This document shows positions 44,419 to 64,000 of a stretch of DNA of 64,000 bases, one piece after another. The notes below the pieces were generated by a model. That model did no database searches and was not told where the DNA came from. It saw only the letters and a list, made by a program, of their open reading frames with translations. The stretch comes from Oscillospiraceae bacterium. GTDB lineage: Bacteria > Bacillota > Clostridia > Oscillospirales > Acutalibacteraceae. Made by a program: the position numbers and the translations under genes. Each line of letters begins with the position of its first letter. The stretch's first letter is position 1. The stretch spans positions 101,750-165,749 of the forward strand of contig CADABX010000001.1 of assembly GCA_902786285.1 (NCBI GenBank). Reading direction: 5' to 3'.

Positions 44419-44427
44419 ATCATTATT

Positions 44428-44619: not shown

Positions 44620-44673
44620 ATCTGTTCAAATCGCGTCCTCCTTTCCTCATTGAATCAATCGGTTGCATCAAAA

Positions 44674-45510: not shown

Positions 45511-45593
45511 AATAGTTTTCCTTTCCGCCCGTATGGCCGATAGCGCAGCCAAGATTGTAATAAGTCAAAAAGTACATAGAGCCGTCGAAGGAA

Positions 45594-46868: not shown

Positions 46869-46904
46869 TGTCTGTCCTCCTTTCCTTCAGTTTTCTGCGA
46901 AGCA

Positions 46905-46942
46905 GGTTACACAACATTCTGCCGAATGTGTGTAACCCACTA
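46905..46942 (-). other. Origin of transfer (oriT) of the element
   Basis: GGTTACACAACATTC (46905-46919) and GAATGTGTGTAACC (46924-46937) form an inverted repeat with one bulged base and a TGCC loop. On the minus strand the outer edge reads TAGTGGGTTA (46942-46933), one base different from the known pMV158 nick region TAGTGTG/TTA. Position just upstream of the MobV gene fits this family. A break between 46936 and 46935 is predicted by analogy. Confidence 0.7.
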
Positions 46943-47016
46943 TGACACTTTCAGCGAAGCTGCAAAGATGTCCGTGGGCAAGGGGAGAGCCCCTTGACTC
47001 CCATGCGGGGCTACGC

Positions 47017-48022: not shown

Positions 48023-48194
48023 ATTGGTTCACACTCCTTTTTGAAATATAATTTGGGCATTCGATGACAATAGCACGGAAGCTCTGTTTGCATTTCCGTT
48101 TGCATTGTCTGCAGAGCATGTTATACGTTTTTCTGCCCCGCTCATTCAGAAAGATCGCCCATTCTTTCTTGAGATATTTCGGCATTCGCGGCAT
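47991..48194 (-). CDS. Small Cys-containing protein upstream of the AAA ATPase
   Basis: 67 residues, ATG at 48194 with GGGGGTGA upstream. It starts MPRMPKYLKKEWAIFLNERG and has three cysteines in LCRQCKRKCKQSF, suggesting a small metal-binding or RNA/DNA-binding protein. Such short basic proteins often precede the RepA-like gene in clostridial mobile elements; I recall the type but no function. The end overlaps the start of the AAA gene by 32 bases. Confidence 0.55.
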   Translation of the reverse strand: MPRMPKYLKKEWAIFLNERGRKTYNMLCRQCKRKCKQSFRAIVIECPNYISKRSVNQYEQQSNQPSF

Positions 48195-48695
48195 TCGATC
48201 ACCCCCTTTTTACGTTCGTCTGCTGCCGGCAGCCGATTTCGTTTTTACCGAAACACAAAAAGCCCGATCTCGCTGAAAACTGTCGGTTTTCGGGGCGATT
48301 TCGGGTATTTTTCTTCGTTTTAAGGCACCTCTCAATGGTAAAGCGATACCGCCCTTACCGTGCCTTATAGTTTTTATCGTTGCGTTTCGGGTATAAAAAG
48401 AAATCGATTCTTTTTTACGGAACCGATTCTTATGTAATACTATATAGTATAGGCCGAAGTCAGTACGATGCCGGCTTCCATTGGTGTGCCGACTTTATGA
48501 CTTCTTGATGACTTGCAAAAGGAAAAACCAAAAGTTTTTATCTTCCTTCACCATATCTATAGTCGAAGAATTGATTATTACCGTCAACTGCGTGACGGTC
48601 GATTTTGAAAGTGTGTGACAAATTCTTTTTGTACATTCGACGAATTCATGATTCTTTGATATGATGAAGCTACCAAGAAAACGGAGGTATGTTAA
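48195..48695. promoter_or_regulatory. Divergent intergenic region of the mobile element
   Basis: About 500 bases between the minus-strand plasmid-like genes and the plus-strand cargo. I see no convincing gene. A TATGAT at 48659-48664 lies about 15 bases before the AACGGAGG of tnpV and may be its -10 box. A short inverted repeat GTCAACTGCGTGAC (GTCA-N6-TGAC) lies near 48582-48595. The region probably holds promoters for both directions. Confidence 0.4.
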
Positions 48696-49121
48696 ATGGA
48701 AAGATTTATCATTGATGAGCGCACCGGCTGGGAATATGAATTGAAAGGCGATTACTATTATCCGACCGGCAGAGTCAGAAAAAACGGCGTAATGGTGCCG
48801 AAAGAAATGCCGGAAGATGATCAGGCAGAGGAGAAAAAACAATCAATCGGGATTTTGGGAGAACGTCATTTACGGTACATCAAGCAGTATAAAAAATCTA
48901 TGTATTTCGAACTGTATATTTCTGGCAAGTTGAACGCGTATCTTGCAAATGTCAACGTAGAGGCAACGGATTTATTGCTTCGGCTGGAAAACGATATGGC
49001 AGTGCAGGAGGGTGTAACGGAACAGATCAAATCTGAAGATCCAATGCGCTGGGTTGGGTTGATGAATAACATACGAAACAGGGCAATGAAAATTGTGAAC
49101 AGCGAATTGATATTTGCATAG
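48696..49121 (+). CDS. tnpV: TnpV-like transposon-encoded protein
   Basis: 141 residues, ATG at 48696 after CGGAGG. The N-terminus (DERTGWEYELKGDYYYP) and the body (GERHLRYIKQYKKSMYFELYISGKLNAYLANVN...) match the TnpV proteins of clostridial Tn4451-like elements. Their function is not established; they are not needed for Tn4451 excision as far as I recall. It is predicted to be soluble and helical. First gene of the plus-strand cargo, 125 bases before the AbiEi-like gene. Confidence 0.75.
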   Translation: MERFIIDERTGWEYELKGDYYYPTGRVRKNGVMVPKEMPEDDQAEEKKQSIGILGERHLRYIKQYKKSMYFELYISGKLNAYLANVNVEATDLLLRLENDMAVQEGVTEQIKSEDPMRWVGLMNNIRNRAMKIVNSELIFA

Positions 49122-49246
49122 ACCAATTTGTCAAAGCGGAGCCAAGCGCTTCGCTTTTTGGCTTATAAAAATATACAACATAGAAAAACATAAAACACTT
49201 GATATTTAGACGAAAATAATATATACTATTTTCTGCGAGGTGCATT

Positions 49247-49852
49247 ATGAGCAGACCAAACTATTTACAAGCAACAAAAAAAAGAATTGAAGCCGCCCAA
49301 TCCGGCTCTGTTTTTGTTGCGGCGGATTTTGCTGACATCGCAGAAACAAAGAAAATCAGCGATTGTCTGAACCGTTTGGAAAATGAAAAAACCATTCGGC
49401 GCGTGATGTTCGGCGTGTATTATAAACCTGAATACAGCAAATTGCTAAATGAAATCATTGCTCCTGCGCCTGATGCAGTTGCACATGCGCTTGCACGCAA
49501 TTTCGGTTGGACCATCGTTCCCTGCGGCGATACAGCGTTATATTTTCTTGGCCTTTCTACACAAGTCTCTGCGCAATGGTCTTACGTCAGCGACGGAGCA
49601 TATAAAGAGTATTTCTTTTATGATACAACCCTAAAATTCAAACGCACCACAAACAAAGAGATTTCAAAGCTTTCTCCAAAAACGGCGTTGGTGATTCAGG
49701 CGCTGAAAGCGCTTGGCAAAGAAAACATCACCGATGAAACGATTGAAAAAATCCAATCTCATACAACCGCTGTCGAGCGCAGGGCGATGCTGAAAGAAGC
49801 GCAATATGCAACAGCTTGGATCTATGAAGTCATCAAACGAATCTGCAGATGA
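49247..49852 (+). CDS. DUF6088/AbiEi-like type IV antitoxin family protein
   Basis: 201 residues. A winged-helix N-terminal half (VFVAADFADIAETKKISDCLNRLENEKTIRRV, about 20-75) is followed by the second domain (about 80-200; WTIVPCGDTALYFLGLS). This layout is that of AbiEi antitoxins, which repress their operon and counter an AbiEii nucleotidyltransferase toxin. No AbiEii gene follows; the next gene is RhuM, 22 bases on. It may therefore be an orphan antitoxin, a regulator of the downstream defence genes, or half of an unrecognised pair. Confidence 0.7.
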   Translation: MSRPNYLQATKKRIEAAQSGSVFVAADFADIAETKKISDCLNRLENEKTIRRVMFGVYYKPEYSKLLNEIIAPAPDAVAHALARNFGWTIVPCGDTALYFLGLSTQVSAQWSYVSDGAYKEYFFYDTTLKFKRTTNKEISKLSPKTALVIQALKALGKENITDETIEKIQSHTTAVERRAMLKEAQYATAWIYEVIKRICR

Positions 49853-49874
49853 AAAAGTGTGGAGGAAATAAAAC

Positions 49875-50858
49875 ATGAGCGAAATGATGATCTTTCAAAC
49901 CGAAGACCGGGAAGTATCTATTGATGTGCGTTTCGATACGGCCGCGGAAACAGTCTGGCTGACCGCAAATCAAATGGCAGAGCTTTTCGACAGAGATGAA
50001 AAAACAATTCGAAAACATATAAATCATATTTTTGAGGAAGGGGAACTCGTTCTTGAGAACAACACGCAAAAAATGCGTGTTGATGGTGTAAAACAACCCG
50101 TTTCATTTTATAACCTTGACGTTATCATTTCAGTTGGTTACCGCGTGAAATCTTTGCGTGGTACGCAATTCCGCCAATGGGCAACCAAACGTCTGAACGA
50201 ATATATCCGTAAGGGCTTCACCATAGACGATGATCGGCTGAAACAGCTTGGCGGCGGAGGATACTTCAAGGAACTGCTGGAGCGCATCCGCGATATCCGG
50301 TCGTCGGAAAAAGTGTTCTATCGACAGGTTCTTGATATTTACGCCACCAGTATTGACTATGATCCCCGTGCAGAGATTTCTGTTGATTTTTTCCGGAAGG
50401 TGCAAAACAAGATCCATTACGCCGTACACGGCGAAACAGCCGCCGAAGTCATTTATCATCGCGCCGACGCGGAAAAGGAATTTATGGGGCTGAAAACTTT
50501 CCGCGGCGATCGACCGCATCTTGCAGACACGGAAATTGCCAAAAACTATCTTGACGAAAAAGAGTTGCGCGCCATGGGACAGATCGTTTCAGGGTATCTG
50601 GATTTTGCCGAACGGCAGGCCGAGCGGGAGATTCCGATGACCATGCAGGACTGGGCAGCGCATTTGGACGGAATTCTGACCGCCACAGGTGAAAAGCTAC
50701 TGCTCGGTGCGGGCAGCGTTTCTCACGCGCAGGCAATCGAAAAAGCACACACCGAATACAAAAAATATCAGCAGCGTACCTTGAGCGCGGCGGAGCAGGA
50801 TTATCTGGATGCGATCCGGCTGCTCGACAAACGTGCTGAACAGGACGGAGAAGTATAA
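49875..50858 (+). CDS. rhuM: RhuM family protein
   Basis: 327 residues, ATG after GGAGG. It starts with the typical VDVRFD...TVWLTANQMAELFDRDEKTIRKHINHIFEEGEL, a helix-turn-helix-like Bro-N/RhuM fold, then YNLDVIISVGYRVKSLRGTQFRQWATKRLNEYI and a helical C-terminal half. RhuM was first noted in a Salmonella pathogenicity island. The biochemical role is not settled, and the family is common in mobile elements, often next to restriction systems or Fic/Doc toxins. Here it sits between an AbiEi-like gene (22 bases) and the type III methyltransferase (55 bases), so it may belong to the defence operon. Confidence 0.85.
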   Translation: MSEMMIFQTEDREVSIDVRFDTAAETVWLTANQMAELFDRDEKTIRKHINHIFEEGELVLENNTQKMRVDGVKQPVSFYNLDVIISVGYRVKSLRGTQFRQWATKRLNEYIRKGFTIDDDRLKQLGGGGYFKELLERIRDIRSSEKVFYRQVLDIYATSIDYDPRAEISVDFFRKVQNKIHYAVHGETAAEVIYHRADAEKEFMGLKTFRGDRPHLADTEIAKNYLDEKELRAMGQIVSGYLDFAERQAEREIPMTMQDWAAHLDGILTATGEKLLLGAGSVSHAQAIEKAHTEYKKYQQRTLSAAEQDYLDAIRLLDKRAEQDGEV

Positions 50859-50913
50859 ATAAAACATTTTTCGTGCTTCCTCATCAGTGAAATTGAGATA
50901 GGAGAAAAAAGTT

Positions 50914-52593
50914 ATGGCGAATAAACTTGAATTGACATGGTATGGGAAGGAACAGCCCATCGTCGTGGAACCGCGCCTTTTGATAGAAAATACAGCTTTG
51001 TCCAACTGCGCCAATGATCCGGACACGGAAAACATGTTGATCCATGGTGACAACCTATTGGCGCTAAAAGCGCTGGAAAGCAAGTTTGCCGGAAAGGTTA
51101 AGTGCATTTATATCGATCCGCCGTATAACACCGGTGAGGCTTTCGAATACTATGATGACAATCTTGAACATAGTATCTGGCTCGGATTAATGCATTCACG
51201 TCTCACACTTTTAAGGAATATTCTTTCTGACGATGGCTTTTTTTGCTGCCAAATAGATGATTCCGAAGGGCACTATTTGAAAACCATTCTTGATGAGATA
51301 TTTGGGAGATCAAACTATTTGACAACGATATATGTTCGCGTCCGGTATCCCGAAAAGACCCTTAAACAAGACATGGCTTTTCACAAGGAAATTGAACAAG
51401 TTCATATTTATAGAAAAACACCTTTGGCTAAACCTATTATGGACACTGTAGATGACGGATATGATAAGTTCAAATACAGAATCGATGTTAAAAGTGAACC
51501 ATCTAAGGTGATCGAACTTGGCGGCAAAAAATTGGAGGTTTATTCTAAAGATTCATATCAAATAATTGAAGAAAAAGGCTCGGAGTATGGTCTTAAGGAG
51601 ATTTGGGCTTCGGGGACTATACTGGACGGAAATTCTTCAGGTAGATTCTTCCGCGATTATTTAACTGGAAGATATGAAGAAGATGGATATGGCGTTCTAT
51701 ATAAAGTCTATGGCATCGGTGATGATCGCTACGATTACCGTTTTTTTACCGGCCCTAATAGGGTTGGGGCGACAAAAGGTAAATACTATCAAGGCGTACC
51801 TGTAGATAAAATTGAAAGTGGCAAAATGACAAAAGAAGTGCCAATCAACGGATTTCTCGACTTGGCTGCCAATTTTGGAAATTGTCGTCAAGAAGGTGGA
51901 TCAGAGTTTAGAGGCGGCAAAAAGCCTGAAATCCTTATAAAATACCTTTTATCCCATTTTTCTATGCCCGGTGATGTTGTGTTGGATAGTTTCCTCGGAT
52001 CAGGAACAACAGCAGCAGTGGCACATAAGATGGGAAGAAAATACATAGGTGTCGAAATGGGGGATCACGCATATAGTTTGTGTCAACCTCGTCTAAACAG
52101 GGTGATTGATGGTGATAAAACCGGCATTTCAACCTCTGTGAACTGGCAAGGCGGCGGTGGATACCGCTTCTATGAGTTGGCTCCATCCCTCATTAACGAA
52201 GACCCATTTGGTGAATATGTGATCAACGCTGATTATGACGCGGATATGCTCGCTGCGGCTGTGGCTCTGCATGAAGGTTTCGCCTATCAGCCGGACAACG
52301 GCCTGTTTTGGAAACAGTCAGTGGGTAACGAGAATAGCTATCTGTTCGTAACCACACGACACCTGAACAGTCCGTTCCTTGACTCTATCCGAAATACCAT
52401 GGAGGACGGCGAATATTTGATCATTGCTTGCTGCTCTTATGATACCGGTCTTGAAAAAGCGTATGATAATATTACAATCAAAAAGATTCCGCAGATGCTG
52501 CTGGATCGTTGCGAGTTCGGCAAAACGGATTATAATCTGAACATCGTTCATCCGCCGGTCTATGAAGATGAGGAGAAAACATGCGATGAGTAA
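50914..52593 (+). CDS. mod: Type III restriction-modification DNA methyltransferase (Mod)
   Basis: 559 residues. An N6-adenine methyltransferase of the beta group: the catalytic DPPYNTG motif comes first (68-74) and the SAM-binding FLGSGTTAAVAHKMGRKYIGVE last (from 360). The central variable part (about 140-330) would be the target-recognition domain. Type III Mod both modifies and, with Res, recognises an asymmetric site. GGAGAAAAAAGTT precedes the ATG. The stop overlaps the start of res by 8 bases (ATGAGTAA), so the pair is translationally coupled. The specificity cannot be read from the sequence. Confidence 0.93.
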   Translation: MANKLELTWYGKEQPIVVEPRLLIENTALSNCANDPDTENMLIHGDNLLALKALESKFAGKVKCIYIDPPYNTGEAFEYYDDNLEHSIWLGLMHSRLTLLRNILSDDGFFCCQIDDSEGHYLKTILDEIFGRSNYLTTIYVRVRYPEKTLKQDMAFHKEIEQVHIYRKTPLAKPIMDTVDDGYDKFKYRIDVKSEPSKVIELGGKKLEVYSKDSYQIIEEKGSEYGLKEIWASGTILDGNSSGRFFRDYLTGRYEEDGYGVLYKVYGIGDDRYDYRFFTGPNRVGATKGKYYQGVPVDKIESGKMTKEVPINGFLDLAANFGNCRQEGGSEFRGGKKPEILIKYLLSHFSMPGDVVLDSFLGSGTTAAVAHKMGRKYIGVEMGDHAYSLCQPRLNRVIDGDKTGISTSVNWQGGGGYRFYELAPSLINEDPFGEYVINADYDADMLAAAVALHEGFAYQPDNGLFWKQSVGNENSYLFVTTRHLNSPFLDSIRNTMEDGEYLIIACCSYDTGLEKAYDNITIKKIPQMLLDRCEFGKTDYNLNIVHPPVYEDEEKTCDE

Positions 52594-55237
52594 CTTTTTC
52601 CCGCAATACACCACAGATTACATCAGCGGTGTTATGTCGCTGCGCAAGCCGCAGACAAAATCTCTCAAAATTTTGGAAGAGATTCTAAGCAGCGTCTCGC
52701 TGCGCAAGGACATGAACCTGCGCGGCGCACTCGGTGCTGTTCATGCCCTGTATCCAACCTGTTCCGATTTTGAGCGGGAGTTTATGTCGCTGACCTTTGC
52801 GTTGGCAACCGGCGTTGGCAAAACGCGGCTGATGGGCGCGTTCATCGCGTATCTCTATACACAGCGCAATATCCGCAATTTCTTTGTTGTCGCTCCGAAC
52901 ACGACGATTTATGATAAATTAAAGCGTGATCTCTCGGATTCCGGCAGTCCGAAGTATGTGTTCCGCGGCCTTGGCTGCTTCAGCCGCGCTCCGCAGATCA
53001 TCACAGATGATGATTATAAAACAAAACAGATTTCGCTTTTTGAATCCGATATCCGCATCTTCATTTACAATATCGACAAGTTCAATAAAGAAGGCGCCAA
53101 CATGAAGAAGATCAACGAGATCATTGGCGACTCTTTCTATCAATATCTTTCTGCGCTGCCAGACTTGGTGTTGATCATGGACGAATCGCACCACTATCGA
53201 GCAGAACGCGGTGCAGCCGCTTTAAATGAGCTTCATCCTCTTTTGGGGCTTGAGCTGACGGCTACGCCGCTTGTTACAAAAGGCAGCAGACAGATTCCGT
53301 TCAAAAATGTTGTGTATGAGTATCCGCTTTCAAAAGCAATTGAAGACGGTTATACCCGGACGCCGTTTGCCGTTACCCGCTCTGACATCGACTTTTACAA
53401 TTTCGGTGACGAGCAGCTCGACAAAATGATGCTTCTCGATGGCATTGCCTGCCATGAAAATACAAAGCGCAAACTGGAAGTCTATGCTGCCAATCACAAC
53501 AAGCCAATCGTGAAACCTTTTATGCTTGTTGTCTGCAAAGACACCGATCACGCTACATGGGTAGAGAGTTTTATCCGTTCCGATCAATTCCGCAATGGTG
53601 CATATGCAAATAAGACGATCATTGTGCACTCCAAGCAGAAAGGCTCCGAGACTGAGGCAAATACGAGGTTGCTCCTTGGCGTTGAAGAACCGGAAAACCC
53701 AGTTGAAATCGTGATTCACGTCAATATGCTTAAGGAAGGCTGGGATGTGAATAATCTCTATACTATTGTGCCACTCCGCACGGCTGCATCAAAGATTCTG
53801 CGCGAGCAGATGGTTGGCCGTGGTCTGCGTCTGCCCTACGGAGAGCGCACCGGTGACCGTGATGTGGATGCCGTTATGCTTACAGCACACGATAAATTTC
53901 AGGATATTCTTGAGGAAGCCCAGCGCGGCGATTCAATCTTCAAGGCCGGCAATGTGATCAATGCCGCGGAACTCGTTCCTGTGCAGACAACCCAAGCACA
54001 GATGTCTTTCCATATGCCGCCGACTACGACGGAACAGAGAAATCAACCACTCCCCGAACTTCCGCAAACAGAAAAAACGAAGGCAATCATTGACAAAGCT
54101 GATGATCTGATCAAAAAAGCAGTTGTACACACGATTCAGTCAACGTCAACACATGCGGTCACACAACAGGATATAAAGCAAATCACAGCAGATGTTGCTG
54201 CTTTCATTTCTGAAGACCATGCCCTTGGAGAAGCTTTCTCAGAGAATAAAACAGCTTTGACTGCATGGATTGAGCAAAAAACGGAACAGACGCATCTTGC
54301 TGCAAAAGAAAAGTTTATTCCGATTCCTCGTGTCAGGATTACTGATTCCGGTGTGGAAGAATATGCTTTTGTTGATTTTGACCTTGATACGGCAGAATTC
54401 AACCATGTACCTATCCGTAACGAACTATTGATTCAAAATCTTGAAGACATGTCTGATCGTCAGCGCATACAGGGTGACGTGATTGATTTTGAAGGATATA
54501 ATCCGAAAAAAGTCATTTTGAATGAGCTACGGAAAAAACCGGAGATTGATTATGAAAAATGCTCCGCACTTCTATTTAAGCTAATTACACAGCTTTGTGA
54601 TCATTATGAATTTCAGCACGGGTCGAATGGTATGCTTAATATCGTTATGATGTTTAAACGTGATATAGCAAACAAGGTTTATCAGCAGATGATGCAGCAC
54701 TTCTATTGCAAAAACGGTTCGCTGAAAGAAGAGGTTGTTGACACACGCGATTATAATCTTACTCCGTCCTACAATTATAAAGAAAAAGTAGGTTTGTATG
54801 AGCCGTTCACGGAAGACATCCACTCTGTGTTGTTTACAGGCATAAAGAAAGGCGTTTTCAGCGAAGCGAAGTTTGATAGTAAAGAAGGTGAGCTAACGCT
54901 TGCCCGCGTGCTTGAAAGCGATCCGGATGTGCTAAAATGGCTCCGACCCCATCCACAGGAATTTAATATCACGTATAACCACGGTCATATATATGAGCCG
55001 GATTTTGTTGTTGATACAGAAAAAACGATTTATCTTGTAGAAGTTAAGGGTGAAGACAAGCTCAAAGATTCAGATGTAATCGCAAAGAAAGAGCGTGGCA
55101 TCCAATACTGTACGGTGGTTTCTGCCTGGGGAAAAGCTAACGGCTATAAAGAATGGCGGTATCTGTTTATCCCGTCAAAGCAGGTTATGCCTAGTTCTAC
55201 TTTTTTACAGCTTGCTGAGCGGTTTAAAGAGTTGTAA
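52586..55237 (+). CDS. res: Type III restriction endonuclease subunit (Res)
   Basis: 883 residues from the ATG at 52586, which lies within the end of mod behind GAGGAG; a frame from 52562 adds eight residues. Superfamily 2 helicase motor: Walker A ATGVGKT (74-80), DESHHY box (199-204), TATPL motif III and motif VI QMVGRGLRLP. The C-terminal PD-(D/E)xK nuclease is at about 805-820 (PDFVVDTEKTIYLVEVKGED). Together with Mod it should cut DNA after ATP-dependent sliding between head-to-head sites. No frameshift or missing motif is seen, so the system looks functional. Confidence 0.92.
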   Translation: MSNFFPQYTTDYISGVMSLRKPQTKSLKILEEILSSVSLRKDMNLRGALGAVHALYPTCSDFEREFMSLTFALATGVGKTRLMGAFIAYLYTQRNIRNFFVVAPNTTIYDKLKRDLSDSGSPKYVFRGLGCFSRAPQIITDDDYKTKQISLFESDIRIFIYNIDKFNKEGANMKKINEIIGDSFYQYLSALPDLVLIMDESHHYRAERGAAALNELHPLLGLELTATPLVTKGSRQIPFKNVVYEYPLSKAIEDGYTRTPFAVTRSDIDFYNFGDEQLDKMMLLDGIACHENTKRKLEVYAANHNKPIVKPFMLVVCKDTDHATWVESFIRSDQFRNGAYANKTIIVHSKQKGSETEANTRLLLGVEEPENPVEIVIHVNMLKEGWDVNNLYTIVPLRTAASKILREQMVGRGLRLPYGERTGDRDVDAVMLTAHDKFQDILEEAQRGDSIFKAGNVINAAELVPVQTTQAQMSFHMPPTTTEQRNQPLPELPQTEKTKAIIDKADDLIKKAVVHTIQSTSTHAVTQQDIKQITADVAAFISEDHALGEAFSENKTALTAWIEQKTEQTHLAAKEKFIPIPRVRITDSGVEEYAFVDFDLDTAEFNHVPIRNELLIQNLEDMSDRQRIQGDVIDFEGYNPKKVILNELRKKPEIDYEKCSALLFKLITQLCDHYEFQHGSNGMLNIVMMFKRDIANKVYQQMMQHFYCKNGSLKEEVVDTRDYNLTPSYNYKEKVGLYEPFTEDIHSVLFTGIKKGVFSEAKFDSKEGELTLARVLESDPDVLKWLRPHPQEFNITYNHGHIYEPDFVVDTEKTIYLVEVKGEDKLKDSDVIAKKERGIQYCTVVSAWGKANGYKEWRYLFIPSKQVMPSSTFLQLAERFKEL

Positions 55238-55341
55238 ATTTTGATAATTTTGGCTTTAGAATAACGAGATTTCTACTTTCACTGTTTGAATCAATATTTT
55301 TTAGTCTTCGATTGTATTAGAAAGAAGAGGAAGAAAAAGAT

Positions 55342-57258
55342 ATGTATGAGAAAGAACTCAGAAGAATACTTGATGCATCGCAAAACAATGCGCTTACATT
55401 CTTTGTTGGAGCTGGAGTTTCCGCTCTTTCAGGGGCACCGACATGGAAAGCTTTAATTGATGCAATTTGCGACGAGTTAGGTTGTGAAAAGAAAGGCAGT
55501 TATTCTTCAGAAGAATATCTTCAGATTCCTCAAATGTTCTACTATTCGCTTGGGGAGAACAAAACGGATTATTTTAAGTTTGTCAAAGAACAGTTGCCTG
55601 AAGCTGGATTACAATCAAATGAAATCCATCGTCAAATGCTTAATCTAAATCCAGTTTCTTTTATTACAACAAACTATGACACTTTACTTGAAGATACGGC
55701 AATACAGCATTGTCAGAGTTTTAAGGTTGTTTCTTCCGATGAAAAAGTCCCAACAATATTTGGTGATAGATTTATTCTGAAAGTACATGGAGATTTTGAA
55801 AATAATAATTTTGTTCTCAAAGAAGAAGACTATCTCAATTATAGTGAAGATTTTAAATTGATAGAAACACTTACCAAATCTATTTTTTCAACTAACACTG
55901 TCGTTTTTATAGGATATGGTCTTAATGACTATAATATAAAACTAATACTGAACTGGGCAAAAACGTTACTCAAGAATAATTTCCGGGAACCGATTTTTCT
56001 CTATACTGGTGATCAGCCACTAACAAATGAAGAGTTGCTTTATCATAAATCAAAAGGGCTTTCAGTAATTGAATGGCAAAAACTATCACCGTCTTCTGCC
56101 AATGACTATATAACCAGATACCAATTGTTCTTTGACGCATTGAACAGTCTATCTCAAACGTCTCTGGATGGGAAAAATGAAGATGCTGCTTTTGAAATGC
56201 TTTACAATCTGCTTCTTCCCTTGAATCGTATAAAAGCACTTCGCATTGAAGATGTTTCGCGGCGGCTCTCTCCTCACGTTATAATAAGAAACGATGGTTC
56301 TGTTAATCTTCCGAAAGATGAAAATCTGTTAATGAAAAAATTCTTGACTATTAATCAAATGTCAGAGGATCAACAGGGTAGTCTTAATAAAGAGACTTTA
56401 GAGAAGTATATGTGTATCCTTAATGTGTTTAAAAAAGCAAGGATACTAATGGTTAATGATAGACTACCATACAGATGCTTTATTAAGGAAGCGCCTTTTG
56501 CAGATGAAAACTGTCTATTATTTGATTATACGTCGATGAATGCGTTTTCGACAAAGGAATATACTTCTCTCGAAAAGAACTATACGAAAGCATTTTATCT
56601 TTCGAGGTTGAAACGATATGATGAAGCATTTTACCTTTTCTCAGAAGTTGCAAAACAAGCATTTGCCGAAAATAACTATTTGTTATACTACTTTGCAGAA
56701 TCAAATTGTATTAGCTTAGGTAAAATAATCAAAAATGTCAACATGTGGTTTAGTTGTTATGACCTCTCAGAAATAGAGTCTTTGTCACTTAGCAATTCTG
56801 AAATTGAAAACTTGTTTTATCGCCTTCCTGTTGAGTTTCGAAATACCTATGATAGTTTGAAAAATATACATAATACTAATATGCTCTACAAGTATTCTTA
56901 TGAATCTTTTGTTGATGGGCTAAAACTTCAAAATGCTATTGAATCAGAGTCTGTTGAATTTGGTTTGTCAAGTTGCGGTAAAGCAATTTGCAGAATCAAT
57001 GATTATTTGCACTTTTTGCAGGGGAATGGCATTATTGCTGATATTTTCACAGAGTATAAGAATACCGTCAAATATCTTATGTCATTGTTGGTATACAAGT
57101 ATTCGACTCAAAATAAAAAAGTAATACACAAACAAACATTTGCGTTTGAAAATGTGGATGAAATTTCTTTTGATGAAGTTGATTTCTATTGTTTTATTGA
57201 TTGCTTTAATGACAAAGAGATAAAAAGCTGTTCAATAAGTACAATATTGAAACCATAA
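55342..57258 (+). CDS. SIR2-domain defence protein, N-terminal part (frameshifted)
   Basis: 638 residues. The SIR2 domain (about 15-270) has FFVGAGVSALSGAPTW (20-35), the catalytic Asn111 in ITTNYDTLLED, and His149 in LKVHGDF, as in NAD-consuming SIR2 antiphage proteins such as DSR2 and ThsA. A helical region with TPR-like stretches follows. The last residues (SCSISTILKP) do not fit the domain; shifting by one base at ATAAAAAGC (57220-57228) joins it smoothly to the next open frame. Joined length would be 987 residues, close to long SIR2 effectors of about 1,000. The gene is strongly AT-rich compared with the restriction genes before it. NAD depletion on phage infection is the family-based inference; abortive infection is not shown here. 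Confidence 0.82.
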   Translation: MYEKELRRILDASQNNALTFFVGAGVSALSGAPTWKALIDAICDELGCEKKGSYSSEEYLQIPQMFYYSLGENKTDYFKFVKEQLPEAGLQSNEIHRQMLNLNPVSFITTNYDTLLEDTAIQHCQSFKVVSSDEKVPTIFGDRFILKVHGDFENNNFVLKEEDYLNYSEDFKLIETLTKSIFSTNTVVFIGYGLNDYNIKLILNWAKTLLKNNFREPIFLYTGDQPLTNEELLYHKSKGLSVIEWQKLSPSSANDYITRYQLFFDALNSLSQTSLDGKNEDAAFEMLYNLLLPLNRIKALRIEDVSRRLSPHVIIRNDGSVNLPKDENLLMKKFLTINQMSEDQQGSLNKETLEKYMCILNVFKKARILMVNDRLPYRCFIKEAPFADENCLLFDYTSMNAFSTKEYTSLEKNYTKAFYLSRLKRYDEAFYLFSEVAKQAFAENNYLLYYFAESNCISLGKIIKNVNMWFSCYDLSEIESLSLSNSEIENLFYRLPVEFRNTYDSLKNIHNTNMLYKYSYESFVDGLKLQNAIESESVEFGLSSCGKAICRINDYLHFLQGNGIIADIFTEYKNTVKYLMSLLVYKYSTQNKKVIHKQTFAFENVDEISFDEVDFYCFIDCFNDKEIKSCSISTILKP

Positions 57259-57269
57259 AATTTCAAAAC

Positions 57270-58304
57270 ATGGAGCGCATTGAAACAGCTGCAAACAACC
57301 TAATGGATTATTATGAATACGCAATTAAGGCATCAAAAAAAAGCATTGAGATATATGGGTTGCAAACGCAAATTAAGAATTGCATTACTTTACTAAGATA
57401 TGTCAACATTTCACAAGCGTTGGTAAATAGAGCCTGTAGTTTTATACTGACACATGAATTTATGGAAATACTAATCGATGACAAAGTGCTTTTTCTTGAT
57501 TATCAGCTAAATCGCAAAAATATGAAAAGTGAGATAACAGCAAAAAAAGTTGAGGATACTCTCATTTCTTATATTGATAAACATATTGTAGCATTAAACA
57601 AAGGCAAAGAATTCCACCTGACTTCTCGCAATTCCAATATAAACTATTGTAACCTGGTTCACTATCTTCCTTTGCCAAAGGAAGGATATGTTTCACGTCG
57701 GCTATCTATACGAGTATCACGTATTTTGAAAAACAAGCTTACTCAAATGTATCCTCACATTATTCAACATTACTCAGACTATGTTTCCGATTATCAGAGA
57801 AAAAGATTGATCACATGGGCAAATAAGCAACTTGAAGATGATTTTAGTTTTGACCTGTTTACTCTGCTGATTAAATTTAATGCTCGAATTGGTTCTAAAG
57901 TCAAAGCTCAACTTAAGACTTATCTTAGAAAGGAAATTGAAAAGGCAAAGGAAAGCAAAAGTAACAATGGAGTTTATGTTTACCCTGCCACTAACCCTTA
58001 TAATGAATTAGTTCAGGTTAGTTACTGGTGTTTAAGAAGGATATTGCGAGCGAAAGACTATAAAGAGTTTCTTGGCAATAGCGATGAGTTTGATTTCTAT
58101 TATGAATATTCAAGTTTTGATTTTAACAAATTTGATGTTTCTTGGCTACTGAATCTTTATCCACAGACATTTAACGAAATTTCTAAGAATAAAACTGTTA
58201 AGAATAAAATACGAATTGCCATTGTCAATGAATTGAAGAATGAAGAATTAGCGGAAAAAGATAAGAAAAATCTCCAAGATATCCTTATTAATTATTTTTG
58301 TTGA
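57270..58304 (+). CDS. C-terminal part of the split SIR2 protein
   Basis: 344 residues from the first ATG, but the frame is open from 57211 (QRDKKLFNKYNIETIKFQNMERIE), where it continues the helical region of the preceding frame. No ribosome binding site precedes the ATG and the gap to the upstream stop is only 11 bases, so this is most likely the rest of one gene. The sequence is helical, Lys/Tyr-rich, without a recognised motif; the C-terminal part of long SIR2 proteins is thought to sense phage proteins. It is followed by a terminator. Independent translation is unlikely but cannot be ruled out. Confidence 0.6.
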   Translation: MERIETAANNLMDYYEYAIKASKKSIEIYGLQTQIKNCITLLRYVNISQALVNRACSFILTHEFMEILIDDKVLFLDYQLNRKNMKSEITAKKVEDTLISYIDKHIVALNKGKEFHLTSRNSNINYCNLVHYLPLPKEGYVSRRLSIRVSRILKNKLTQMYPHIIQHYSDYVSDYQRKRLITWANKQLEDDFSFDLFTLLIKFNARIGSKVKAQLKTYLRKEIEKAKESKSNNGVYVYPATNPYNELVQVSYWCLRRILRAKDYKEFLGNSDEFDFYYEYSSFDFNKFDVSWLLNLYPQTFNEISKNKTVKNKIRIAIVNELKNEELAEKDKKNLQDILINYFC

Positions 58305-58417
58305 CACTTATATATTTTGTTTTCCTTATGTGAGATTAGAATCGCATTTAAACCATAAACATAAGAAAACTGCACTATATCGCCATCGGAGCATTTTTTC
58401 GATTTTGACAATACATT

Positions 58418-58452
58418 AAAAAGACAATTTCTTGCCATGGGATTGTCTTTTT
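58418..58452 (+). terminator. Terminator after the SIR2 gene
   Basis: AAAAAGACAAT (58418-58428) pairs with ATTGTCTTTTT (58442-58452), 13-base loop, followed by further T residues. Confidence 0.85.
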
Positions 58453-58463
58453 TCATTTCTCCC

Positions 58464-58523
58464 TTGACAAACGTAGAAAAATGATATATATTATGTCTAA
58501 ACCGAATAAGTCATTCGATTTAG
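58464..58523 (+). promoter_or_regulatory. Promoter and inverted-repeat operator of the LexA-like gene
   Basis: TTGACA (58464-58469), 17 bases, TATATT (58487-58492). Directly after the -10 box is an inverted repeat CTAAACCGAAT (58497-58507)-AAGTC-ATTCGATTTAG (58513-58523) with one mismatch. It covers the expected transcription start near 58499, so a repressor bound there would block initiation. GGAGGG and the ATG follow at 58526-58537. Confidence 0.82.
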
Positions 58524-58536
58524 AGGAGGGCTGAAT

Positions 58537-59148
58537 ATGCGCTCAAAAAACCCCGAAAAGATGAACGACATCTTGAAATACATTACGGAATACATGATTG
58601 AAAACCACGAACAGCCGACGGTCGCAATCATTGCCTCAGAGTTTCACAACTCCACCAGTACGATCCATGGATATTTGAAAGAGATGGATGAAACGGGGAT
58701 GCTGGCATATAAAGATGGACGGATTGAGCTGCCGATGGATAGTAAGATCGGATATGAAGAAAACACGGCGATTATATTGGATAACAACGCCTCCTGCGGG
58801 CCGGGCAACCCGGAGGAACAGAATATCCAGGCTTATATCAATCTGCCGGCGCGTCTTTTCCCTGAACGGAATCTCGTCGTTCTGACCGCAAAGGGCGACT
58901 CCATGGAAGATGCCGGCATCAGTGAAAACGATCTGCTTTTTGTGGACACTTCCGACCTGCCGAGGAAGGGAGACATTGTGGTTGCGCTGGACGATGAGGG
59001 CGAAACGCAGGTGAAGCGGCTGAGGGGCTATCGAAGCAAAGCACCAATTCTTGCTTATGAAAACCGGGAAAAATACCCGGACAAGCTGTGCGACAAGAAA
59101 ATCGTAGCCATTCAGGGCGTCGTGCGGCATATTCTGAAGCATTGCTGA
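58537..59148 (+). CDS. LexA-like self-cleaving repressor (S24 peptidase)
   Basis: 203 residues. The N-terminal winged helix (about 8-65) resembles LexA. The C-terminal latent protease has Ser122 (KGDSMEDAGI) and Lys160 (TQVKRLRGY), spaced like LexA Ser119/Lys156. The cleavage site 35 residues before the Ser is Cys87-Gly88 (NNASCGPG) rather than Ala-Gly; UmuD also uses Cys-Gly. On DNA damage RecA filaments would trigger cleavage and release the operon. The gene carries a strong promoter with an operator over the start site, consistent with autorepression, and heads a run with DUF6076 (14-base gap), a sigma-like gene and the recombinase. This suggests SOS-type control of element mobility. Confidence 0.88.
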   Translation: MRSKNPEKMNDILKYITEYMIENHEQPTVAIIASEFHNSTSTIHGYLKEMDETGMLAYKDGRIELPMDSKIGYEENTAIILDNNASCGPGNPEEQNIQAYINLPARLFPERNLVVLTAKGDSMEDAGISENDLLFVDTSDLPRKGDIVVALDDEGETQVKRLRGYRSKAPILAYENREKYPDKLCDKKIVAIQGVVRHILKHC

Positions 59149-59162
59149 ACGGATGTGTTCCG

Positions 59163-60314
59163 ATGGAAAAAGCCTTTGATCATATTATTGCGGACTATGC
59201 CGGAAACAAAGTCATGGTTAACGGTGCGGAACACCTGGTTGGTGAATGCAGTGTGGCTCTGCTGAACTGTTTTAATGAGCCGGATGAACTGGAGGCTTTT
59301 GGTGATCTGTCAGATGATATTCTTGCTGATTCCGTGTATGTTGAATCATCCGAAACGACACAGGATCATATCGACGTTCTGTGCGAGGACATTCTTTCCC
59401 TTCTTCGGCTGGTAAAAGATTTTCATCCTTTTGTGCCCTTTGCGACAGAAGTGCAGTTGGAAGCAGTTTGGGAATCCTTATCCGGTGAGATTATTGTTTC
59501 GCTGCGCCGCTTGTATCACGAATGTGCCAAGATTGCCGAAGAAACCGGCAAAGCGGTTCAAACGATCTTGCAGAGAGTGCGTCCGGACCTGGATGCGGAG
59601 CGCATTCTCGGAATCGTTACAAATTCCAATCGGCAGATTGCAAACATGATTACCCTTTACGGAGAGTATGGTCGGGATCTTATGTTCGCGAAGAATGAAA
59701 TAAACGTCTTGGCGGAGCGCTTTAGGCTGTTGAAAAAGCCGGACGCTACCCATCTGCTGCCGATCGCTTTTTATGCGCTCCCAAAGGTTGCAACGCCGAC
59801 AAAGGTACAATTCGTTAAAGCGGAGTTTGAGGGCGACCTGGAGTTTAAGCTGGCGAACCGTTATTTTTTCAGTCGGTATCTTGATTTTATCTTCTATGAT
59901 TTTTATCAGGGACTCGGGCTCGGGCACTATCCGAGAAGATGCGAGGTCTGCGGTAAGTATTTTCTGATGACGGACAGTCATCTGCAGCGTTATTGCAACG
60001 GACTTTCCGGAATCAAAAATCGCGCCGGAAAGGAGCTGACCTGCAGAGCCGTTGGAAAACAGCGTCGGCAAAAGGAGCTTGCCGAAAATGATCCGATCCT
60101 GAGAAAATACAAAACCGTTTGCAATGGCATCCGTAAGGATGTCAGCAGAGGAAAGATCACAGAGGAAACCGCCGAAGCCGCAAAGAGAGCTGCGAAAGAC
60201 TGTAAAGAAAAAGCAAAGCATAACAACGACTACGCAAACGGCGCTTATTTTACCGACATGAATAAAAACAGGTTCTACGCAATGGTGACGCCTAAAGATA
60301 CGCGCGTTGCATAG
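59163..60314 (+). CDS. DUF6076 family protein with CxxC motif
   Basis: 383 residues from the ATG at 59163; the longer frame overlaps the LexA-like gene and its extra residues look non-coding. The N-terminal 220 residues are helical without recognised motifs. The C-terminal part (about 255-360) has PRRCEVCGKYFLMTDSHLQRYC...GKELTCRAVG, four cysteines of a zinc-finger type also seen in DUF6076 proteins, then a Lys-rich region. Such proteins are found in clostridial integrative elements between a LexA-like regulator and a recombinase. Possibly a DNA-binding accessory factor; the function is unknown. It precedes the sigma-like gene by 19 bases. Confidence 0.65.
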   Translation: MEKAFDHIIADYAGNKVMVNGAEHLVGECSVALLNCFNEPDELEAFGDLSDDILADSVYVESSETTQDHIDVLCEDILSLLRLVKDFHPFVPFATEVQLEAVWESLSGEIIVSLRRLYHECAKIAEETGKAVQTILQRVRPDLDAERILGIVTNSNRQIANMITLYGEYGRDLMFAKNEINVLAERFRLLKKPDATHLLPIAFYALPKVATPTKVQFVKAEFEGDLEFKLANRYFFSRYLDFIFYDFYQGLGLGHYPRRCEVCGKYFLMTDSHLQRYCNGLSGIKNRAGKELTCRAVGKQRRQKELAENDPILRKYKTVCNGIRKDVSRGKITEETAEAAKRAAKDCKEKAKHNNDYANGAYFTDMNKNRFYAMVTPKDTRVA

Positions 60315-60333
60315 ACCACAGGAGGATGGATCG

Positions 60334-61341
60334 TTGTACGAAGAAGAAATGGAAGAGTTTGAATATGATTATGACGGTGAACAGCCGGATGAATCGGATA
60401 TATCTGACGAAGAGAAAGCGCCTGTGCCGGGGGTTGACCCTTACCGCATTTTTCGCAAACAATGCTCGCCGGAAAAAGCAGCCATCGAGGGCTGCAATTT
60501 GAATGAAACGATCCAGCGTCATTTTGAAACGTATCTTGCAGACGGAAGTGAGAACGCATGGAGTTGCTTTCTCTCGGCCAGTGAACCGCTGATTAATCGC
60601 GCTGTTTCGGCGTTTGAGGTGCAGTACCATATCAAGGGCTGTTTCGAGGATCTGAAGGGCGCGTTTTTACTCGGTCTCATGATGGCACTTCAACATTATG
60701 ACGCTAAAAAGGAAAAGATGTTTTTTGATTACGCCAAGCAATATGCCAAAAATGAAATGCACCGATTTGTCCGCACCTGCTATTACGGTCACTCGATTCC
60801 ATCGGACTATCAATATAGGGCTCTACGGAACGTGATGTATCTATATCATGAAAACAATGAGATGACCGATTATCGAGCGATCCAGTCGATTGCGAAGGAA
60901 ATCAAAAGCACGCCTGACGATGTGCAGGAATATCTACAGGCTGGTTTTCAAAATGAGTGTTTTGTATCCTATGAAAACCCGTGTCCGGATTCCAAAGAGG
61001 AGGAGTCTTCCTGTGAGGTGCTGGTCGGCAGCGATACGCTGAACCCCGAAGCCGTCTATTTCCAGAGGTTGCGCACAAACGCCGTGCTGGATGCCTTTGA
61101 TTCGCTGACCTACCGGGAAAGGGAAATGGTCGCCATGAAGTTGTCGTTCTGTCCCGATTGCCTGCATCCGCACATGATGAAAGGAAAAAATGGCACGTGC
61201 AGACCGAAACCGCCTCACGCTACATCCTATATCAGTATCGCGGAAGAGTTTGAACTGATTGACGGGGATTCGGCAAAACGAATCATTAAAGGGGCATTAT
61301 GCAAAATGAAAAAACAAATAAAACATGCTCGATGGGTTTAA
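60334..61341 (+). CDS. Sigma-70-like factor of the mobile element
   Basis: 335 residues from a TTG at 60334 behind AGGAGG (8-base spacing); an ATG overlapping that site is out of frame and a TTG at 60307 lacks a ribosome site. The N-terminus is very acidic (EEEMEEFEYDYDGEQPDESD). Region 2-like sequence is at about 95-150 (CFEDLKGAFLLGLMMALQHYDAKK...FFDYAKQYAKNEMHRFVR), region 4-like at about 250-330 (DSLTYREREMVAMKLSF ... ISIAEEFELIDGDSAKRIIKGALCKMKK). A CPDC...CRP insertion splits region 4, which is unusual. It may direct transcription of element genes or be only a structural relative of sigma factors. Confidence 0.7.
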   Translation: MYEEEMEEFEYDYDGEQPDESDISDEEKAPVPGVDPYRIFRKQCSPEKAAIEGCNLNETIQRHFETYLADGSENAWSCFLSASEPLINRAVSAFEVQYHIKGCFEDLKGAFLLGLMMALQHYDAKKEKMFFDYAKQYAKNEMHRFVRTCYYGHSIPSDYQYRALRNVMYLYHENNEMTDYRAIQSIAKEIKSTPDDVQEYLQAGFQNECFVSYENPCPDSKEEESSCEVLVGSDTLNPEAVYFQRLRTNAVLDAFDSLTYREREMVAMKLSFCPDCLHPHMMKGKNGTCRPKPPHATSYISIAEEFELIDGDSAKRIIKGALCKMKKQIKHARWV

Positions 61342-61403
61342 TAAAAATATCTGATGATTCAACATCTGATAAAAATAGAAAACACCTTCCTTTTTGGGCA
61401 TAG

Positions 61404-61491
61404 TTTTACTTGACTCATAGTTGACTGGAATGTGATATTTCACAAAGAACCCCCTATTTTTCATGGAATTATCGCCATTTTTTACTTGACT
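61404..61491 (+). repeat. Direct repeats upstream of the recombinase gene
   Basis: The 261-base gap before the recombinase contains TTTTACTTGACT twice (61404-61415 and 61480-61491), 76 bases apart, with further TTGACTGG/TTGACTC-like copies near them, and a small palindrome TGTGATATTTCACA between (61431-61444). These may be binding sites for the recombinase, the LexA-like protein or the sigma-like factor. Confidence 0.45.
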
Positions 61492-61614
61492 GGGTCTTGA
61501 TTGTCTCTATTTAAAAATATCTTATTTGATTCTTACGACAGAAATTTTTATCCTTTTGCACATTCGCAAAAGGGAAATATGTGTTGTATGCTTAGGTAAA
61601 GGATGGTGATTTTT

Positions 61615-63753
61615 ATGGCATTAAAATGTACAGTAGAAGATTTACGGGAAATTGAAATTGTCAAAAACCGCGCCGTGATCTACGCCCGCTACAGCTCGGA
61701 AAAGCAGAAGGAGGCCAGTATCGAGCAGCAGGTTAACGCTTGTATGGAATACATCACCCGCAAGGGCTACAGCCTGATTCGCGTGTATTCTGACAGTGCG
61801 AAATCTGCGTCGCACAACGTGGAGAAGCGCAGCGATTTCCTGAAGCTGATCGAGGACGCGGAATCCGGCGAGTTTGACGTTGTGGTATCTTATGCGTTGG
61901 ACCGGATCAGCCGCGAAGAGCACGGCGGTTTTTACGGCTATGAAAACGCGCTGAATAGAAACGGGGTGCGTATCGAGTATGCGACGCAGGTCTTTGACGA
62001 TGGCTACGGCGGCGAAATCTCCAAAGCCGTGCATGTGACCATGGCGTCGGAATATGTTGCCCAACTGCGCAAAAACGTGGTACGCGGTATGCGCGACAAT
62101 GTGGAAAACGGCCGCTTTAACGGCGGGAGCAGTATTCCGATCGGAATCAAGATCGTTGGCGAAGGAAAGAAAAACAAACGCTATGCCGTTGATGAAGCGG
62201 TCTGCCCGTATATAAAGCAAGCCTTTGAAATGTATGTGTCCGGACAAACGACCGGAGACATTATGGAGTTTCTGAACGACAACGGTGTTCGGACCTCGCG
62301 CGGAAAAAAGGTCAGCCGCGACACCGTCAACCGTATGTTGGCAAATCCGATCTATATCGGCAGAAGAGTCAGCAAGTTCAACAACAAGGTGGAACACAAA
62401 GTTTATACCGTGGATGGCGTTTGCGAACCGATTATTTCCGAAGAGTTATGGGAACGGACACAGGTATCCCGCCAAAAACGGCTCAACAGAGGAATGACCG
62501 AAGCCAAAAGGAAAAAATACATCTTGCGCGGCAAACTGTTTTGCGGCTTGTGCGGAACAGAAATGGTTGCCGACTGCGGGCGAAGCTCAACCGGTGAGAA
62601 ATATTATTATTACACTTGCGGACACCGCAAACAAGCAAGGGGCGGTGAGCGCTGCAGAAAGCAGCCTATTCCAAAGGAACTGCTGGAAAACTGCGTAATT
62701 GAGATTATCACCAATCGACTTTGGGATCAGGCGATGATCGACGAATATGCCTGCGCTGCAAGAGAAGCGGCAAAAAAACGGGAGGAAGATCCTCAGATTG
62801 TCAGACTTCGAGCAGAAATCAAGTCCCATGCCGAAAAGAAAAAGCGCGCCATGCAGTGTTATCTTGACACCGCTGACACGGAGTGGTATGATATGAGCAA
62901 GGATGAGGCGCGACTTCTCAAAGAATGTGAAGCCGAGCTTGCGACCAGAATCCGTCAGGATCATGCACCGAAGAACGCAGACGAGTTTCTTGCGGAGATC
63001 CGTCAGCTTCGAAGTGCGTGGGACGAAATGCTGAAGACTGATGCAGGCAGGGAACGGATCGTTCAGACCTATGTTGAGCGTATCGATATCTTTGATCCCG
63101 CGCCGGATGATCCCGGGAAATGCCGCTTGGATCTTTTGATTAGAACAGATACAGATGCGGAGGCCTCGGAGCATGTGCAGGCCGAAGTCGAATGTGCCGT
63201 TCGAGTATCTGAAAAAATGGGTCACCACAGCAGTCGGCTCAAAAGAGTCGGCTGCTTCATTTTTGATGATCTGCATCTGCTGCCCGAAACAGACCGCTAT
63301 GTGATTAAACCGAAAGACGGTGCGGACTCCATCGGATTGGAGTTTCTGTCCAAAGAAGCACTGCTGCAACGGGATTTTTCCGACGGCAAAACACTGATCC
63401 AGCCTGCGGTCGATTTTGACTATGAGGTTTCGTTTTATTTTATCAACGACCGCTTCGAATATGCGATGTATGCGCCGGATAAAACCAAAAGATGGGAACT
63501 CAAAGCGTATTCCTGCAGCGATGTGGACATTGCGTTTGCCAGGCGCTTTATTCACTGGAATACCATGGAACGCGGCATTCAGCGCGTAGATGCCTGCCGC
63601 ACGAAAGACGGCCGGCTGCTGCTGGTGGAGCTGGAGGATCTGAATCCGTATCTCTCTGTTCTGGAGGTCGATCCGCAGACCAGAGACCGGTTTATGAAGG
63701 ATTTTGTTGCCGCTTTGGAGCAGGCCTGCCTGCCGGACAAAAACAGCCTGTAA
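61615..63753 (+). CDS. Large serine recombinase fused to an ATP-grasp-like C-terminus
   Basis: 712 residues from the ATG at 61615, better spaced from AAAGG than the ATG at 61603. The N-terminal resolvase domain has catalytic Ser27 (YARYSSEKQ) and DRISREEHGG. A recombinase domain follows (about 150-260), then a zinc-ribbon (LFCGLCGTEM...YYTCGHRK...CRK, about 308-345), a coiled coil and the usual end region (about 470-530, RERIVQTYVERIDIFDP). Large serine recombinases integrate and excise such elements. From about residue 540 the sequence changes to an ATP-grasp-like fold: YVIKPKDGADSIGLEF, TLIQPAVDFDYEVSFYF, IQRVDACRTKDGRLLLVELE. The front part of an ATP-grasp enzyme is missing. Either the element inserted in frame into an ATP-grasp gene or it is a real fusion. 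A terminator follows 35 bases later. Confidence 0.88.
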   Translation: MALKCTVEDLREIEIVKNRAVIYARYSSEKQKEASIEQQVNACMEYITRKGYSLIRVYSDSAKSASHNVEKRSDFLKLIEDAESGEFDVVVSYALDRISREEHGGFYGYENALNRNGVRIEYATQVFDDGYGGEISKAVHVTMASEYVAQLRKNVVRGMRDNVENGRFNGGSSIPIGIKIVGEGKKNKRYAVDEAVCPYIKQAFEMYVSGQTTGDIMEFLNDNGVRTSRGKKVSRDTVNRMLANPIYIGRRVSKFNNKVEHKVYTVDGVCEPIISEELWERTQVSRQKRLNRGMTEAKRKKYILRGKLFCGLCGTEMVADCGRSSTGEKYYYYTCGHRKQARGGERCRKQPIPKELLENCVIEIITNRLWDQAMIDEYACAAREAAKKREEDPQIVRLRAEIKSHAEKKKRAMQCYLDTADTEWYDMSKDEARLLKECEAELATRIRQDHAPKNADEFLAEIRQLRSAWDEMLKTDAGRERIVQTYVERIDIFDPAPDDPGKCRLDLLIRTDTDAEASEHVQAEVECAVRVSEKMGHHSSRLKRVGCFIFDDLHLLPETDRYVIKPKDGADSIGLEFLSKEALLQRDFSDGKTLIQPAVDFDYEVSFYFINDRFEYAMYAPDKTKRWELKAYSCSDVDIAFARRFIHWNTMERGIQRVDACRTKDGRLLLVELEDLNPYLSVLEVDPQTRDRFMKDFVAALEQACLPDKNSL

Positions 63754-63820: not shown

Positions 63821-64000
63821 ACAGGAAAACGAAGATACATGGAAAAATATACAAAAACAGCCATTATTTTTAAGAAAAGAATCAGCAGGTTGTTTTTGAA
63901 TATGTTATGGTACAATTGATGGGTAACAAATAAAAGAAGAAATTCAACTCAAATGTGATATGATGTTAATAACCACAAAAACACATATCAAGGGAGAGCT
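63821..64000 (+). promoter_or_regulatory. Probable leader of a gene beyond the window
   Basis: No gene is seen. The stretch is AT-rich with TACAAT at 63911-63916 and TATGAT at 63959-63964 as candidate -10 boxes, and ends in AAGGGAGAG, which would be a ribosome binding site for a plus-strand gene starting just past base 64000. Confidence 0.4.

Follow-up and report, generated by a model that had tools for sequence, protein, structure and literature searches.

A large serine recombinase that probably reads from a putatively mobilizable element at tRNA-Glu into host DNA, with an in-frame ATP-grasp remnant

How does a large serine recombinase come to share a reading frame with part of an ATP-grasp enzyme? 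The window analysed here, a 64,000-nucleotide stretch of a contig from an Oscillospiraceae bacterium, holds on its forward strand one uninterrupted ORF of 716 codons (61603-63753). Residues 24-367 match the Resolvase (E 6.3e-20), Recombinase (E 3.2e-21) and Zn_ribbon_recom (E 6.9e-10) domains, all above their cut-offs, and the recombinase, through the attachment core inclusive, takes up 542 codons (61603-63228). The last ~160 residues, encoded in frame at 63265-63753, are the 3' part of a host ATP-grasp gene and begin at about residue 117 of the full-length family. A sequence-only reading of the window had described one frame passing from a recombinase into an ATP-grasp domain devoid of its N-terminal part, and this description is borne out by the extent of the ORF, the domain matches, the existence of real ATP-grasp relatives and the absence of ~117 residues. 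The explanation we favour differs from the two it had offered, insertion into an ATP-grasp gene or a new fusion enzyme: very probably an element integrated at the 3' end of tRNA-Glu, its own recombinase gene was cut at the core, and the ATP-grasp tail is accidental.

By its own sequence the window tail scores weakly and below cut-off (Pfam ATP-grasp_3, E 0.14; NCBIfam DcsG, E 0.052), and the family as a whole likewise scores under the Pfam cut-off. Since PDB sequence searches with the window tail and with the whole protein of L010, its close relative, gave no match, the ATP-grasp identity is taken from a fold search: the AlphaFold2 model of the full-length L010 protein (pLDDT 91.8, 51-sequence alignment) matches DcsG (6jil, E 2.3e-14), LysX and Ddl in the PDB. 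These ligases have the fold of the full-length L010 relative, complete with the N-terminal domain, whereas the window copy is without its ~117 N-terminal residues. The part from 63265 (86% nucleotide identity to L010 2822-3261) is nonetheless a genuine ATP-grasp remnant. Relatives are common, 570 being encoded among at least 594 pattern-matched stretches in genome contigs; the best 80 of at least 570 were retained for study, and the hosts among these 80 include rumen and gut Clostridia, methanogens, Streptomyces and Bacteroidota.

L010 (one contig with G157:C64) shares recombinase and upstream gene with the window at 97.35% identity as far as window position 63264, and has beyond that point an intact ATP-grasp gene with its own start. 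The window rejoins this gene 368 bp further in, and the 368 bp lost from the window copy include the gene start. An uninterrupted ATP-grasp gene, which the sequence-only reading had proposed to seek in a strain lacking the element, therefore does exist, but beside the same recombinase. Between window and L010, dS amounts to 0.085 for the recombinase (542 codons) and 0.666 for the ATP-grasp part (155 codons), and from nth to tRNA-Glu, upstream of the element, the host DNA shares 89.6% identity; the recombinase end has therefore moved between species independently of the flank, and element and flank have different histories. Over its left part the element matches that of G157 at only 78% identity, as against 97.35% at the right end, so it is a mosaic. 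The 368-bp loss would be an event separate from integration, and it could be a misassembly. It is unlikely, if not negligibly so, that the in-frame joint is an assembly artefact and that the real genome has, like L010, an intact ATP-grasp gene after the terminator: the source genome is a draft of 67 contigs, 90% complete, and the window contig stops 247 bp past the ORF end within a dispersed repeat, but the sequence itself bears no mark of a chimera. The main conclusion, that the tail comes from host DNA, is independent of whether the joint is such an artefact.

What marks the ends of the element is a tRNA. An intact tRNA-Glu(UUC) lies at 43528-43602 on the forward strand (ARAGORN), its 3' end ...GGGTCACCA forming the host half of attL, and the element extends from 43603 to 63227 (19,625 bp). 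The att core TCACCA is present in attL (43597-43602) and in attR (63222-63227, with host DNA beyond), and is common to both and to an empty site in G176. In attR this core closes a 29-nt mimic of the tRNA 3' end (GTTCG...TCACCA, 63199-63227, forward strand) which lies inside the recombinase gene and constitutes one attachment-site half; the element is thus bounded by an intact tRNA at one end and a copy of the tRNA 3' end at the other. The core ends 38 bp ahead of the ATP-grasp part, and in the interval, within the ORF, sits a strong terminator-like hairpin (63229-63256; 12-bp stem, -20.6 kcal/mol, z -5.45) separating the two parts of the frame, so that the terminator reported earlier just behind the ORF, whatever lies there, is joined by another inside it. 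At the empty G176 locus (L135), with the same nth neighbour, the tRNA ...GGGTCACCA is followed by a terminator hairpin which after TCACCA would translate as HHNSRFKRVGCFVLC; a hairpin homologous to it follows the recombinase of the integrated G166, which reads HHNSRFERVGCFVLH. Because a homologue follows tRNA-Glu in the empty G176, the ORF-internal hairpin with its T-run (63229-63264, forward strand) is the terminator of the host tRNA-Glu gene, now within the recombinase ORF. A second empty site, in G159 (L142), has nth upstream and a tandem tRNA-end unit behind the tRNA. A genus search for the recombinase end found four positives among 34 genomes, and in all four the left end of the element lies behind tRNA-Glu with nth upstream, both ends being on different contigs in G157, G152 and G166; related elements at one tRNA in four genomes would imply past recombination activity.

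These ends make it scarcely credible that the element inserted into the ATP-grasp gene itself with 63264/63265 as its right attachment site. The 3' part is present alone and in the orientation of the recombinase, as noted in favour of such an insertion, but the left end is marked by an intact tRNA-Glu, the stretch at 63229-63264 has its homologue behind tRNA-Glu in the empty G176, and in L010 the same right end adjoins an undamaged gene, which speaks against such an insertion barring misassembly of both L010 and G176. Nor was the missing 5' part found on the other side of the element or elsewhere in the 90%-complete source genome (best E 0.27). The earlier proposal of capture thus holds insofar as host DNA was captured in frame at the right end; the target is the tRNA-Glu 3' end, and the ATP-grasp joint gives way as right attachment site to the core at 63222-63227, with the tRNA-Glu terminator lying between.

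A selected fusion enzyme, in which the ATP-grasp domain serves the recombinase, is likewise very improbable. The frame is open, in L010 too (833 codons), and the ATP-grasp part shows no decay: w against L010 is 0.123, a single one of 77 outgroup-invariant columns is altered, with the same alteration in L010, and eight changes polarise to each of the two branches (four are unpolarised). Decay of this part is uninformative as a clock. Against such an enzyme stand the lack of ~117 N-terminal residues and the strong hairpin between both parts, as well as the relatives: different tails are found on the recombinases of G152 and G166, the ATP-grasp gene is missing from G152 and on a separate contig in G166, and among the first 20 of the best 80 ATP-grasp loci a frame continues from a recombinase in L010 alone. 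An ATP-grasp protein is present in 6 of 59 relatives, and of those six, the window's genome and G157 alone have recombinase-length frames, in each case at tRNA-Glu (the count leaves out a frame of 437 codons in G159); the fusion was thus seen at no unrelated site. The related recombinases of L104 and L105, examined for a shared tail as the sequence-only reading had suggested, are without the ATP-grasp part, and its alternative of a new recombinase/ATP-grasp fusion finds no support. The fusion is an accident of position, arising from read-through past attR together with the 368-bp loss, or with misassembly.

With the integration at tRNA-Glu as our preferred reading, the att site lies inside the recombinase gene and the integrated gene therefore runs into whatever host DNA follows. 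In each of the four genus genomes the recombinase frame passes through the core; with the first of the two core codons as number one, the integrated frames continue for 176 codons in the window, 292 in L010, 15 in L104 and 134 in L105, and the window recombinase once integrated has no stop of its own before host DNA. The first ~14 tail residues are alike in the window and L104 because both are read from tRNA-Glu terminators, and the two tails differ past that point. When the frame is instead read into the left ends, as in the deduced circle, all four tails end TLQ(V/L)RAGSYFLRLSCLVRLK-stop; that of G157 has other residues ahead of the common end and 6 nt more, in frame, its first 24 nt behind the tRNA being unlike the other three left ends (18 nt there), which is why G157 is without the GAAC arm described below. 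In the window the stranded recombinase 3' end (43604-43684, forward strand; 26 codons and a stop) is in frame only across the circular junction and reads to the same end in G152, G166 and G157, and right after its stop stands a hairpin which we read as the recombinase's own terminator (43692-43718, forward strand; -22.0 kcal/mol, z -6.0). The common left-end tails and this hairpin therefore make the natural 3' end of the gene appear stranded 19.6 kb away, beside the tRNA. A circular junction of the window element was nowhere observed, and its attP is a deduction from the two ends. Like the target, the ends and the empty site, the tail exchange is shown at the level of sequence, with the circular form deduced, and the C-terminus differs between integrated and deduced circular forms in the four genus elements as well as in five two-ended elements (the window element belonging to both sets).

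We propose that the presumably mobilizable element was integrated at the 3' end of tRNA-Glu(UUC) by its large serine recombinase, whose gene holds the putative attachment site in its own 3' end. In the circular form the gene would cross the core and end 26 codons on, at its own stop and terminator; integration would cut it at the core, leaving those codons, stop and terminator beside tRNA-Glu, and the integrated recombinase would read into the tRNA-Glu terminator and then into a host ATP-grasp gene deprived of 368 bp including its start. The natural tail may be needed for integration, and the host tail would then weaken the recombinase afterwards. Alternatively, a message ending at the tRNA terminator before any stop would be a non-stop message, and this might weaken the recombinase. 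By analogy with known systems, we infer that the tail exchange would alter the activity or stability of the recombinase, and that the enzyme would be changed by losing its natural tail, in the manner of the myxophage Mx8 and of what has been proposed for the rumA ICEs.

Exchange of the integrase C-terminus on integration is already published for both of these systems, in the passages covered of the reports concerned. In the rumA streptococcal ICEs, integration swaps the 3' part of the single serine integrase gene and changes its length and C-terminus, and like the window element they combine a large serine integrase with attR inside the integrase gene, according to the part of the report consulted (PMC4701971). 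The target described in the same passages is the protein gene rumA, whereas the window element uses a tRNA 3' end with a tRNA mimic in the att site, and its gene, unlike theirs, enters a tRNA terminator and then the next gene (PMC4701971). For Mx8, the relevant passages place attP within the integrase gene and describe a new C-terminus and changed behaviour upon integration (PMC6070905, PMC4701971, PMC4383910), with a reported difference in activity between integrated and free forms (PMC6070905); Mx8 Int is, however, an unrelated enzyme, a tyrosine integrase, and the effect measured there is inferred for the window (PMC6070905, in part). Islander-type islands, in the sections covered, resemble the window element in being flanked by an intact tRNA gene and by a duplicate of that gene's 3' end, and the 2014 Islander paper there speaks of tyrosine-family integrases as the only ones known to target tRNA genes; the window element differs in its serine recombinase and in a shared core of 6 to 11 bp (PMC4383910). 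A review of mobilizable elements from 2017, in the portion covered, assigns serine-integrase sites to the inside of genes (PMC5704250), and the word "tRNA" does not occur in the main text, as far as covered, of a large survey of serine recombinases (PMC10083194). No title or abstract among those listed dealt with serine integrases that use a T-loop mimic to reach tRNA ends, which is no proof of novelty; in the literature passages covered, serine integrases using tRNA ends with such an exchange do not appear.

Recombinase searches at the order level (394 genomes, 14 matched at E <= 1e-60) and at the family level (398 genomes, 4 matched at E <= 1e-20) extended the comparison to distant recombinases. 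The 29-nt GTTCG...CCA stretch stands in the recombinase 3' part at 17 of 22 loci (window, L010, L104 and L105 included), where the background density of a stricter mimic pattern (53 in 501,686 positions, true cases counted in) leads us to expect ~2 chance cases. A terminator-like hairpin lies directly behind the CCA in 15 of the 17; L159 and L161 have in place of this hairpin a GAAC arm 18-19 nt behind the CCA and look uncut for that reason, L161 doubtfully so. The five loci without the mimic are L112 (contig end), L167 (broken frame), L168, and L113 and L170, which run instead into the 3' ends of tRNA-Val and tRNA-Ala in antisense orientation. Among 12 oriented sequences the mimic is present in 11, the exception being G415, which runs into antisense tRNA-Val. 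In five of the 12 a tRNA immediately precedes the other end, and an arm with GAAC as its end follows the CCA at 18-19 nt: tRNA-Glu in the window and G432, tRNA-Val in G555, tRNA-Ala in G743 and tRNA-Lys in G716. In five oriented sequences the contig extends 2.4 to 11.8 kb upstream without a tRNA, and no attL was found in ~34 kb upstream in G183. The layout is the same in all five two-ended elements (window included), which were selected for having both ends in view: the circular reading stops 21-27 codons after the CCA, and a hairpin follows or overlaps that stop. Another long read-through is seen in L169 (G743:C23), where the recombinase frame has 878 codons, 384 of them past the tRNA-Ala core. 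On the genome contig L159 (G573:C27) the recombinase retains an uncut tail of phage type (NPNTFVTKNVFGFV) with the GAAC arm, and the element was possibly not integrated when sequenced.

Viral, phage and plasmid collections supplied 90 further loci, 80 of the 90 being the best of a longer list; the 29-nt stretch was found in 58 of them, against ~5 expected from background density, and was absent in 32. A script classed the 58 as attP form (36), integrated form (16) or unclear (6), the classes of L220, L249, L253 and L270 being doubtful. ARAGORN found five tRNAs in the 90 loci (tRNA-Leu twice, tRNA-Ala twice and tRNA-Ile once), each with the GAAC arm 18 nt after the CCA; in L273 the tRNA with its arm occurs without the 29-nt mimic. 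Sixteen attP-form tails were hand-picked from the 36 as alignable and in one phase, and 13 of these share NPN...K(H/N)xFGFV. Over the 16, pN/pS is 0.41 beyond the P' arm and 0.49 for the whole tail, with pS at 0.68, near saturation, and of the other two frames one has a stop in 16/16 and the other in 7/16, which points to a tail that is translated and selected. Tail conservation is nevertheless partly set by DNA motifs, the NPN part being dictated by the arm AATCCGAAC, which is read as NPN. No relative turned up for the window ORF in the phage collection or for the recombinase protein in viral contigs; the plasmid collection gave 270 records for the recombinase, all below 60% identity, and the exact joint and right-end patterns had 0 and 0 occurrences in viral contigs. 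The layout that makes such accidental fusions likely is, to judge from these loci, recurrent in elements and phages.

The same T-loop and CCA marks lie 24 nt apart in tRNAs and 29 nt apart in the elements. In the passages covered of a study of the Listeria (LI) integrase, the zinc-ribbon motif is 5 bp closer to the centre in attB than it is in attP (PMC3783163), and the spacing from T-loop motif to CCA seen here is LI-like in that respect. If the 5-nt difference is taken as the Listeria zinc-ribbon shift, the T-loop GTTCGA would be the motif, and the zinc ribbon of the window recombinase may thus read it; the LI motif and target are nevertheless unrelated to the window's, and the LI case was backed by binding tests (PMC3783163, in part). 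Tentatively, and at somewhat less than even odds, we speculate that an unnamed and large lineage of serine recombinases, in mobilizable elements and phages and mostly in Clostridia, targets tRNA 3' ends (Glu, Lys, Val, Ala, Leu and Ile seen) through this near-universal T-loop motif, whose distance to the core would be 5 bp shorter in the tRNA than in the element. The free form would carry a conserved tail of ~25 residues and the integrated form host-coded residues behind a tRNA terminator, a one-way tail swap that might set the direction of the enzyme or turn it down with no additional factor. A single enzyme family could gain access to many tRNA genes if the T-loop does serve as zinc-ribbon motif, which would be of interest for bacterial genome engineering, and the tail swap is a candidate way to control integrase direction. 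For annotation, odd recombinase "fusions" and variable C-termini would be explained as host read-through and not as domain architecture, and a sequence rule, a 29-nt mimic in an integrase gene and a GAAC arm 18-19 nt past the CCA, can mark both element ends.

The element itself encodes a Mob/Pre relaxase (45594-46868, reverse strand; PF01076, E 1.4e-43) and defence-type cargo at 49247-57258 on the forward strand: AbiEi-like, RhuM/PDC-S05, a type III methyltransferase and restriction enzyme, and SIR2 (ThsA-like). The defence-type region at 49247-58304 also holds a neighbouring protein without a match. Near the left end, an inserted segment with a 173-aa ORF (43722-44435, forward strand, ends approximate) is missing at this point from the other three elements, those of G152, G166 and G157, in which some 31 bp separate query parts 1-125 and 860-1996, and separate copies of it occur elsewhere; its ORF is presumably IS200/IS605-like. 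Two overlapping minus-strand frames at 47017-48022 resemble one interrupted gene, which we take to be a RepA/RecA-type ATPase.

An explanation by tandem elements was dropped because GGTCACCAC occurs twice on the forward strand and not on the other over the 64 kb. Four ~31-nt tandem copies of a short hairpin lie between tRNA-Met and tRNA-Glu at 43406-43527, and tandem units behind tRNA-Glu or its copy occur in L105 (5907-6088), L114, L130, L132, L142 and L104 (two units). These measure 165-186 bp (373 and 390 bp in L104), each with a hairpin and an inverted-repeat segment (GACGAGAATCG...CGATTCTCGTC or close) and ending in a tRNA 3'-end copy GGGCGATTCTCG(T/C)CCGGGTCACCA; they may be scars or a small non-autonomous element. 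A ~100-bp repeat, 96-100% identical, is shared by window 63893-64000 and the G000 contigs C63, C40, C48, C62, C14, C7, C6 and C45, located at or near many contig ends; it is probably a dispersed transposon end where the assembly breaks, the end of the window contig included. Far upstream, at 1300-12057, the window has a single ORF of 3585 codons.
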